From the NCBI GenBank assembly GCA_944350445.1, contig CALVOW010000017.1:1-34851 (forward strand): a DNA stretch of 34,851 bases, read 5' to 3'. Each line of letters starts with the position of its first letter. Within the stretch, counting starts at the first letter, position 1. The notes beneath the pieces are model-generated. The model did not search any database and was not told where the DNA came from. It was given only the letters and a program-made list of their open reading frames with translations. The position numbers and the translations under genes were made by a program. This DNA comes from an uncultured Bacilli bacterium. GTDB taxonomy: Bacteria; Bacillota_I; Bacilli_A; RF39; UBA660. Below are positions 18,170 through 20,902 of this stretch, piece by piece.

Positions 18170-18226
18170 ATGTTAAGAATTTTGCTAAACAAAGTTAACT
18201 CTGTGTCAACCACGGGGGGGGTCTAA
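18170..18226 (+). CDS. 18-codon leader ORF with an eight-G slippery run
   Basis: ATG 18170 to TAA 18224-18226 encodes MLRILLNKVNSVSTTGGV. A weak ribosome-binding site (AAGGGT, 18153-18158) lies upstream. The last codons are ACG GGG GGG GTC TAA, so the eight-G run lies just before the stop. If read with one extra base (G insertion, transcript slippage, or a -1 ribosomal frameshift on G GGG GGG), the frame stays open for 58 codons. It then runs through the terminator and ribosome-binding site and ends at TAG 18343-18345, inside the start of the next gene. Such an open frame through a terminator is hard to explain by chance alone. Function as a leader peptide is inferred. Confidence 0.6.
   Translation: MLRILLNKVNSVSTTGGV
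18214..18221 (+). repeat. Homopolymer run of eight G
   Basis: This is the longest G run in the window; the next longest I see is six, in ligA. It is unusual for such AT-rich DNA and lies in a leader ORF upstream of a surface protein. Runs like this are typical sites of slipped-strand phase variation, transcript slippage or ribosomal frameshifting. Confidence 0.9.
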
Positions 18227-18270
18227 ACCGCCAAAGTTTTTCTAATTTTCTAAGAAATAGTAAGAAATTT

Positions 18271-18316
18271 AAACACTTAAAACTAGTACGCGAGTACTGG
18301 GTTTTAGGTGTTTTTT
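18271..18316 (+). terminator. Strong intrinsic terminator inside the leader (attenuator)
   Basis: The outer stem AAACACTTAAAAC (18271-18283) pairs with GTTTTAGGTGTTT (18301-18313), including one G-U pair. An inner AGTAC/GTACT stem is capped by a GCGA tetraloop, and a T-run follows to 18316. It stands between the leader ORF and the surface-protein gene, and ends 18 nt before that gene's ATG. This is the arrangement of an attenuator, not an ordinary end-of-gene terminator. Confidence 0.88.
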
Positions 18317-18334: not shown

Positions 18335-20902
18335 ATGAAAAATAGAAAGAAAATAATAAGTATAAGTTTAATAATAACTTTAATATTAATAGTAACCATT
18401 GGAGTAAGTTATGCTATTTTTAGTTTTTTAGGAATTGGAACTAATAATCAAGTAGCCATAACTGGAGATATTTATATGCATTATAATGGGTCAGACACAA
18501 TTACTTTAACTAATATGTTGCCAATGTCAGAAAGTGAAGCCTTAGCAAGAACTGATAATATTTTTAACTTTACAATCACTGGAAAAAATACAAGTAGTCA
18601 AGATATTTATTATGGTATCTCTTTAGAAGAAGGAGCAGAACAAACTGGAAAAACAAGAATAAAACCAAGTGATGTAATGGTATATTTAGAAAGTGATGGC
18701 GAAAAGTTGGTAAATTCACTTCGTTATCAAGATTTTACTAATCATATTTATGTTGATATGATTCCAGCTAATACTAATGAAGAAATAACCAAGAATTATA
18801 GTTTAAGAGTATGGTTAAGAGAAGGAATAATTGTTAGTGATACAGAAAGTAATGCTAGTTATACAACTGAAGAGTGGGCTAATAGTTATTTAAGTTTAAA
18901 GGTAAGAGTAGATGGTAATTTAGAAAGTATGAATATGCCACTTATGGTTGAAAATAATGAAACCTTTGTTGAAAATAATAAAGCCTATTTAATAGTTAAC
19001 ATTAAAAATTATGAAAATCCCAGTGAAGAAGGTGAAATGTTAACTGAAAATGATGAAATGAAGTTAGAAATAAGTGGAACTAACTCCGATGTAGTATTTT
19101 CTTATAAAGATAGTTTAGGAAACGAAGTAACTAATACAAGTGATACTTTAACCTTAAATTATTCTTTAAACAGAAAAACGAGTGTTGAAGTTCAAGTTTA
19201 TGTAATTCCTAAAAATGATGCTAATAGTAATACTGATGTAACCGTTAAATTAACCAAAAATAATACAGAAAGTTACCAAATAATTAAAAATATGAATGTA
19301 ATGGGCAATAACTATTGTTTAAACAATGGTTTTAATAAATTAGGAGATTGTATCTTAGTTTCGGAACATCAAACGGATAATGTTGAGACAGCAAAAACTC
19401 AGATAGCTGATAAAGGCTATCCCAATTTAAATGATACAGCTCCAAGTTATACTTATTTAGAAGAAACAACGACAAATGTTAGTAATGCGTTTACAGTTTC
19501 AAGTGGTTATAAATATTACTTTGCAAAAGACTATGAATTTAATGCCACCAATGGAACGTTTAGATTAACAGGTGATATTATAACCGATACATTAAGTGAT
19601 ACCTATTTAAATTACTATACATGTGGTGGAACTAGCGTAGGAAATAGTGCTTGTGGAACTATCTATAAAATCTTAGGAACTGATGTAAATACACAAACTA
19701 TAACTTTGGCTGACGTATATACCTATAAAATAGCTAGTACCATTAGAAGTGAAGTGGGCTTATATGCCGTGGAAGACGACTATGGAACTTCTTATATTTA
19801 CCGAGGCGATGTTTTAAATAATAATGTTTACTTTGGCGGATTTTACTGGAAAATAATTCGTATGAATGGCGATGGTTCGATTCGAATGATTTATAACGGA
19901 ACCACTCCTGATGCTACAGCTACTAGCATCAATAATCAAACTTATCAATATAATAGCCATTATCCCGACCCAACTTATGTAGGGTATATGTATGGAAAAG
20001 ACTTTTCCCTTCATACCAATAGTGAAACAACATATGCAAATATCCTTGCTTTAAGAACTTATTATTTTGGATCTAGTTATGAGTTTGATGAAGAGACGGA
20101 AACATTTAAATTAACTGGGGATATTACCAGTGGAACATTTCGTGATATGCAGGATCAATTTGCCGATTATCCTTATACATGTAAATTAACAAATGGAACT
20201 GGAAGTTGTCCAGTCATGATAAAAGTTAATAGTTATGTAAACGAAACGCAAGTGAGAGCTCAGTATATTTCCTATTCTTCAAATAGTTATGAAAGTACTT
20301 TAACGAATGATAATGACAGTAATGTCAAAACAATCATAGATAATTGGTATGAAACGGATATTATTGGAAAAAGTGATAATGAGGGGAATTTATTAACTAA
20401 TTACATTGTTGATGGAACTTTTTGTAATGATAGAACTTTTGCAAGTAATAATATTGGTGATGGGTATAGTCTAGTACCGATAACTTATTATTCAGCTTAT
20501 AAGAGATTACATGAAGATGATAATAAAACGGCGACGTTAAAATGCAGTCAAGATAGTGATAGATTTTCAATGACAAGTAGTCGCGGGAATGGAGATTTAA
20601 CCTATCCCGTAGCTTTAATCACTGCTGATGAAGCCGCCTTAGCTGGCGGAAGATATGGTTTAAAAAATCAAGAATATTATTTACGAGCGACTAATTATTA
20701 CTTTACGATGACACCTTTGATTTTCAATACTACGTATGCTTATGCTAGCTCATCTACCATTGGCCCAGCGGGCGAGTTGTATCCATGGGGCAGTGTCGCG
20801 TACTTATATGGCGTCCGTCCAGTTATCAATATTCGCTCCGATGTCTTAATTCAAGAAGGCGATGGAACCAGTGAAAATCCTTTCATTTTACAACTTGCTT
20901 AA
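18335..20902 (+). CDS. Large exported surface protein with C-type-lectin-like C-terminus
   Basis: 855 residues. A hydrophobic signal or anchor helix (about residues 8-30, ending VSYAIFS) resembles SipW/TasA-type signals. The next roughly 300 residues are rich in Thr/Asn/Ser and beta-strand-like. Two related blocks follow (about 390-465 and 572-648), each with a YEF...TF.LTGDI core and a Cys pair. The C-terminal part has FYWKIIRMNGDGSIRMIYNG, TFCNDR, LTYPVALITADE and YGVRPVINIRSDV, a form like the C-type-lectin/FGE-type folds. The ribosome-binding site AGGAG (18324-18328) is 6 nt before the ATG. No sortase motif or second membrane helix is seen. Role: adhesion or binding at the surface, inferred. 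Confidence 0.75.
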   Translation: MKNRKKIISISLIITLILIVTIGVSYAIFSFLGIGTNNQVAITGDIYMHYNGSDTITLTNMLPMSESEALARTDNIFNFTITGKNTSSQDIYYGISLEEGAEQTGKTRIKPSDVMVYLESDGEKLVNSLRYQDFTNHIYVDMIPANTNEEITKNYSLRVWLREGIIVSDTESNASYTTEEWANSYLSLKVRVDGNLESMNMPLMVENNETFVENNKAYLIVNIKNYENPSEEGEMLTENDEMKLEISGTNSDVVFSYKDSLGNEVTNTSDTLTLNYSLNRKTSVEVQVYVIPKNDANSNTDVTVKLTKNNTESYQIIKNMNVMGNNYCLNNGFNKLGDCILVSEHQTDNVETAKTQIADKGYPNLNDTAPSYTYLEETTTNVSNAFTVSSGYKYYFAKDYEFNATNGTFRLTGDIITDTLSDTYLNYYTCGGTSVGNSACGTIYKILGTDVNTQTITLADVYTYKIASTIRSEVGLYAVEDDYGTSYIYRGDVLNNNVYFGGFYWKIIRMNGDGSIRMIYNGTTPDATATSINNQTYQYNSHYPDPTYVGYMYGKDFSLHTNSETTYANILALRTYYFGSSYEFDEETETFKLTGDITSGTFRDMQDQFADYPYTCKLTNGTGSCPVMIKVNSYVNETQVRAQYISYSSNSYESTLTNDNDSNVKTIIDNWYETDIIGKSDNEGNLLTNYIVDGTFCNDRTFASNNIGDGYSLVPITYYSAYKRLHEDDNKTATLKCSQDSDRFSMTSSRGNGDLTYPVALITADEAALAGGRYGLKNQEYYLRATNYYFTMTPLIFNTTYAYASSSTIGPAGELYPWGSVAYLYGVRPVINIRSDVLIQEGDGTSENPFILQLA
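20729..20845 (+). other. Candidate DGR-type variable region at the 3' end of the surface gene
   Basis: Between the FTMTP and GVRPVINIRSDV motifs the base composition changes sharply. In 20761-20820 I count 37 G/C and only 8 A in 60 bases, against a clearly A-rich genome. The encoded residues (about YAYASSS, then GPAGELYPWGSVAYLY) are mixed and unlike the rest of the protein. Loss of A in a short 3' block before a conserved motif is the mark of adenine mutagenesis by DGRs. No template repeat or reverse transcriptase is in the window. Confidence 0.5.

Follow-up and report, generated by a model that had tools for sequence, protein, structure and literature searches.

Diversity-generating retroelements (DGRs) with remote or multiple targets are known from several bacteria. 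The DGR of Treponema denticola serves two to seven dispersed targets of the TvpA type and, in addition, 'suspicious' targets which carry excessive mutations (PMC4891356), and for cyanobacterial DGRs remote targets have been defined by an identity above 50% between the variable region (VR) and the template repeat (TR) (PMC7517822). A remote or multi-target DGR is also known from Thiohalocapsa (PMC10907252). DUF6273 belongs to the domains already known to be targeted by DGRs and was described for targets of Faecalibacterium prophage DGRs (PMC11792537) and for tentaclins (PMC10743442), and for the DGR of phage BPP-1 the stem-loop located 3' of the IMH is not strictly required (PMC12875486). Our literature search returned no paper joining a DGR with RF39, nor RF39 with phase variation.

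Here we describe a stretch of 34,851 bases, called the window in the following, which represents contig C17 of assembly G000 (1,338,029 bases in 46 contigs, 94% complete). VR copies from this genome are named by contig. The window harbors a gene for a surface-type protein with the following features.

18335 to 20902, plus strand: target gene for a surface-type protein of 855 amino acids, an open reading frame (ORF) with 12 paralogs in its own genome.
Within 18335 to 20902, plus strand: N-terminal hydrophobic anchor MKNRKKIISISLIITLILIVTIGVSYA of the target gene, seen in the sequence.
19745 to 20899, plus strand: C-terminal domain (amino acids 471-855) with a predicted C-type-lectin-like (DUF6273-type) fold, according to an AF2 model and structure alignment.
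20711 to 20822, plus strand: VR, a gap-free match to the TR on contig C6 (76 of 112 positions identical).
20810 to 20822, plus strand: IMH-like 3' end of the VR, GGCGTCCGTCCAG compared to GGCGTGCGCGCAG in the TR (3 mismatches), its position being suggested by analogy with BPP-1.

The gene had attracted attention because of a GC-rich, A-poor block, for which a preliminary description based on the letters alone had counted 37 G/C and 8 A within the 60 bases from 20761 to 20820, and these counts proved exact. This 60-mer marks the GC maximum among all 60-mers of the window, and the value of 37 is reached by only three of them, which overlap each other. The surroundings are indeed A-rich, as had been stated (39% A and 26% GC over the whole window), and the elevated GC is limited to about 20740-20830, the 300 bases 5' of the VR having a GC content of 35%. 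The location at the 3' end of the surface gene, between FTMTP and GVRPVINIRSDV, is the same in the 855-codon ORF. The extent of the block, in turn, has to be corrected, since the GC-rich 60-mer is real but the stretch homologous to the TR is broader (20711-20822). An Rfam search of the window gave no match.

It had also been predicted that a reverse transcriptase (RT) and a template repeat must lie elsewhere, to be found by searching the genome for a template copy and a DGR-type RT. Indeed, both are located on contig C6 of the same genome. The RT search of G000 returned two places, C6 (L030) and C19 (L031), and C6 carries a complete DGR in the order target, TR, MutS-domain-I-like ORF, Avd and RT.

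L030 10870-8300, minus strand: target gene with the cis VR at 8491-8380.
L030 8041-7930, minus strand: TR, non-coding and near the RT, identical to the cis VR at 93 of 112 positions.
L030 7654-7211, minus strand: ORF with a domain match to MutS domain I.
L030 7224-6865, minus strand: Avd (PF22296 bAvd, 42.3 bits, cut-off 40).
L030 6878-5757, minus strand: DGR-type RT (RVT_1, 62.9 bits; motifs IGNMTSQ and YMDD).
L030 5623-5512, minus strand: degenerate TR-like copy 3' of the RT, in which the 3' flank of the TR is retained.

Judged by its sequence, the C6 reverse transcriptase is of the DGR type. Its motif contains SQ, which we take to be a marker of DGR RTs, and its best PDB match by sequence is 8ub7, presumably the RT of BPP-1. 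The Avd protein scores 34.4 bits against NF033474, which is below that model's cut-off of 80. The RT cassette is chromosomal, adjoining ffh-like and sufS-like genes, and its TR has a GC content of 52%. Differences between the TR and the cis VR are practically confined to template A's, 18 of the 32 A's being substituted and 1 of the 80 remaining bases. In the degenerate copy 3' of the RT, the 5' half has acquired A-type changes, as though a non-coding duplicate of the TR had itself been overwritten. On C19 a second DGR is apparent (L031 4757-7041), which comprises a TR-VR pair with A-only differences over the repeat and an Avd-like ORF; its RT frame is split in two (pseudogene or assembly error) and its target is truncated by the contig end.

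A genome search with the C6 TR returned the TR itself, its degenerate copy, six other VRs, the window at 20711-20817 and one chance match of 14 bases. The alignment with the window is ungapped over the full 112 nt, and 17 of the 32 template A's are changed (53%) compared to 19 of the 80 other bases (24%; p=0.003), an excess that was also obtained upon stratification by codon position (p=0.0026). All 12 window codons located opposite AAY codons of the TR are still NNY. From this we conclude, with a probability of roughly 85%, that positions 20711-20822 represent the VR of a remote (trans) target of the C6 DGR, which has since drifted and has not recently been overwritten by the current TR. The non-A divergence of the window VR from the TR (0.24) is close to the divergence of the flanks from their siblings (0.18-0.25), so that there is no sign of recent overwriting. 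The A bias at this site is partial, since the 19 non-A differences and the 3 mismatches within the 13-nt 3' end (10 of 13 positions identical to the TR end) count against A-specific writing. The proposal that the block is a DGR target thus stands with regard to the TR alignment and the excess at template A's, but the non-A differences characterize it as aged or retired and not as demonstrably active. Its base composition would follow from the same origin: a GC-rich TR as the source would explain the high GC content, the replacement of template A's the low A content, and the block would drift back with time. The explanation of the A-depletion by mutation of A's, which had been put forward before, therefore accounts for a part of it, to which the GC-rich template contributes as well. 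A horizontally acquired GC-rich patch was ruled out as a candidate, since the source TR is present in the same genome.

Alternatively, the window VR could be live today, having been written by a second, unassembled TR or by an older form of the TR with the 3' end GTCCGTCCAG, in which case the non-A differences would be template differences and not drift. We regard this as unlikely. The assembly is incomplete by 6%, the 3' end CCGTCCA is common to the window, C16 and C2, while the C6 TR has GCGCGCA, the TRs of relatives end in CGTCCAG, and L170 and L196 each possess two TRs for one VR, all of which is in line with another template. However, a genome search with the window VR revealed no non-coding copy nearer than the C6 TR, and G>A or C>T accounts for 14 of the 19 non-A changes, which is the direction expected of drift toward the AT-rich genome.

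The drifted-target reading is placed in context by the sibling copies. Relative to the TR, the VR of C24a is changed at 15 of 32 A's and at none of the 80 other bases, followed by C9 (17 A, 3 other), C24b (12 A, 3 other) and C2 (11 of 32 A, 5 other, none of which lies in the first 99 nt and all of which lie within the last 13 nt, leaving the core clean). C31 and C16 are intermediate between clean and drifted copies, and C28, C7b, C7a, C27 and C34 are without A-specific excess in the ungapped comparison over 112 nt. With rising non-A divergence, the GC content of the VR decreases from 0.60 to 0.30 (13 copies, Spearman -0.98), and that of the 300 bases 5' of the VR is constant at 0.31-0.36 over the 13 copies. 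As far as can be judged from these alignments, the 13 copies are a gradient, ranging from pure A-only variants of the TR to unrecognisable ones, with the window copy in the middle of the series, and we interpret this gradient as a decay series of rewritten sequence. In some of the drifted copies AAY codons are changed more than the rest (C7b, p=0.004; C34, p=0.003), which means that a position-specific excess alone is not unique to writing by a DGR. Ordinary diversifying selection on an exposed loop, acting in the absence of any retroelement, could be invoked for C34, C7a and C27, the oldest copies, which have no DNA-level link to the TR. Nevertheless, such an explanation is most improbable for the window block, because it is contradicted by the gap-free homology to the TR, the GC gradient and the pure A-only siblings elsewhere in this genome.

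The genome of 1.34 Mb encodes 12 long paralogous surface genes, several of which are truncated by contig ends, and a 13th VR is located in a prophage module. The long paralogs of the window gene are 72-82% identical to it, and the VR is the sole deep conservation trough across the 12 paralogs (amino-acid identity of 0.33 vs 0.64-0.99 elsewhere). The paralogs look mosaic, the window gene being nearer to C7b in its body and nearer to C24a in its VR, and for the recent pair C7a/C27 the divergence is 0.23 over the final 77 nt compared to 0.01 upstream of the VR, as would be expected if the block varied by gene conversion between paralogs, i.e. by cassette swapping instead of a retroelement. However, gene conversion shuffles existing variants and cannot create A-only differences from a non-coding TR, and the 13 VR copies are all distinct, the closest pair from different genes differing at 12% of positions; we consider this explanation to be quite unlikely. 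C7a (L033 4244-4355) and C27 (L036 2932-2821) are recent duplicates with a divergence of 1% in the 360 nt upstream and of 12% in the VR. A genome search for a TR of this VR type returned the two genes only, and another TR, lost or unassembled, may have served them.

The C-terminus of the window protein had been described as lectin-like, and a fold prediction, which had been suggested as a check, supports this. The AF2 model of amino acids 471-855 (pLDDT 80.5, pTM 0.75) aligned with the N-terminal domain of the T. ramosa IgAse (residues 37-305) with a VIA-align Z of 12.7 over 194 residues, the next best value being 2.7. This IgAse domain is a DUF6273 domain (PMC12402451) with a C-type-lectin-like core (PMC12237041). 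PF19789 was weakly matched by 7 of 22 homologs (best E 0.0007) and not by the window protein itself, a Foldseek search of the PDB with the domain model gave no match at E<=0.001, and a sequence-profile search of the PDB yielded only chance matches to antibodies. Based on the model, the VR-bearing domain is predicted to be DUF6273-like with a C-type-lectin-like core.

The C2 copy resides in a gene for a 158-aa protein of a prophage module (L045 2345-2821, VR at 2672-2783), whose neighbors match Sak4-like annealing protein, SSB and NinB phage families. Given the composition of its changes, it is likely that the chromosomal DGR wrote in trans into this prophage gene, 5 of 13 positions at the 3' end of the VR being mismatched. 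Among the viral contigs and phage records searched, no relatives of the C2 target were found.

Upstream of the window gene lies a leader, which comprises the following elements.

18170 to 18226, plus strand: mini-ORF MLRILLNKVNSVSTTGGV with its stop codon, preceded by an SD-like AGAAGGG and conserved in the genome's 16 leader copies.
18214 to 18221, plus strand: G8 tract within the mini-ORF, found in a run search of the genome.
18272 to 18313, plus strand: predicted terminator-like hairpin followed by T's, just 5' of the start codon.

From the 17 runs of at least eight G's in the genome, 16 sit in this one conserved leader element, which beside the window (18170-18313) occurs on C4, C6, C7, C11, C19, C24, C25, C28, C29, C30, C31, C32 and C41. 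The layout consists of an SD-like AGAAGG or AGAAAGG, a mini-ORF ending in KVNS(M/V)ST.GGV and the G tract, with the hairpin before the start codon in aligned copies; a terminator-like hairpin was predicted in 9 of 9 aligned leaders, and one of its pairs shows a compensatory change (U-A/C-G) in 4 of 9. The tract is mostly G8 across the paralogs, G9 in C28 and C31b, and G10 in C6. A mini-ORF with G8 has its stop at the tract. That of C28 stays open until 79 nt past the tract start, in the hairpin region, and those of C31b and C6 also extend beyond the tract. The G9 of C7a was rejected as a case of slippage because it is a T>G substitution that leaves the end of the mini-ORF unchanged. For the window family, the idea that poly-G serves as a promoter spacer was likewise rejected, since inspection by eye gave no convincing -35/-10 pair. 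In the relative L190 (9534, 16594), G8 and G9 tracts lie between TTGACA and TATGAT boxes, which fits a poly-G promoter spacer, and at least the first of them is directly upstream of a gene with the DGR domain.

The leader resembles a phase-variable attenuator superimposed on the DGR, which would regulate expression through slippage in the G tract. Tentatively, a two-layer system could be envisaged, in which the DGR rewrites ligand-binding tips across a dispersed surface family and slippage between G8 and G10 in the mini-ORF decides whether leader translation runs into the terminator-like hairpin, so that few variants would be expressed at once, while the same chromosomal DGR would write in trans into the resident prophage gene.

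In the same-genus genomes G014 and G002 the RT is 67-68% identical to that of C6, and each encodes about 22 homologous C-termini with a strongly varied VR. No TR was seen next to the RT in G014, G002 has only a degenerate TR-like stretch there, and a fresh TR was identified in neither. TR-VR pairs that differ only at A's are also present in further uncultured Bacilli, in most cases within genes homologous to the window C-terminus. Two TRs matching one VR are located beside the RT in L170 (2147 and 2567) and in L196 (354 and 844). Among the relatives, a G run of this kind, counted from 350 nt before the start onward, was present in 7 of 24 target-domain ORFs vs 5 of 569 other ORFs (p=5e-8); the G002 and G014 copies examined have no such tract.

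Following the mechanism of BPP-1, the TR RNA would be reverse-transcribed with random bases placed opposite template A's, and the cDNA would replace the 3' part of the target gene as far as the GVRPVIN codons, which would vary surface residues of the C-type-lectin-like domain. According to the copy gradient, the window copy would have been written by the C6 TR or its ancestor and then drifted, so that its GC-rich block probably represents a DGR-rewritten surface-protein tip, which was partly eroded by ordinary mutation. One RT system in a small gut-bacterial genome thus appears to rewrite roughly a dozen related surface proteins at their tips. This would place a multi-target DGR in a gut Bacilli lineage whose genome measures only about 1.3 Mb, and the 13 VR copies would provide a natural time series for the decay of rewritten sequence after the last retrohoming, from which target turnover could be measured. 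Should the poly-G leader act as a switch, random protein design would be combined with an on/off choice of the displayed design.

Since remote multi-target DGRs are already known from T. denticola, cyanobacteria and Thiohalocapsa, the C6 DGR with its window target is not a new kind of system. With the DGR of Bordetella phage BPP-1 (PMC12875486, PMC3240598) it shares RT, Avd, TR, A-specific mutagenesis and a VR at the 3' end of a lectin-fold gene; BPP-1 has a single cis target and a stem-loop directly after the IMH, whereas such a stem-loop was not seen here, no inverted repeat or stem-loop common to the targets being found up to 160 nt after the stop codon. The window VR, at 68% identity to the TR, lies above the 50% used for cyanobacterial targets, which are, however, mostly cytosolic signalling proteins, whereas the present targets belong to a single family of surface-type proteins with an N-terminal anchor. 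As in the Faecalibacterium prophage DGRs and tentaclins, a DUF6273 domain carries the VR at its C-terminal end or as a surface hairpin of the C-lec fold, but those systems are phage-borne, whereas the present RT cassette lies on the chromosome and serves cellular targets. Like in T. denticola, one RT and TR serve several remote C-type-lectin surface-protein targets, and the window copy resembles the 'suspicious' targets with excessive mutations (PMC4891356). In contrast to T. denticola, the targets comprise 12 long paralogs and a prophage gene within some 1.3 Mb of genome, and the system combines a MutS-domain-I ORF and Avd, instead of HRDC, with a DUF6273-like domain and a poly-G leader.
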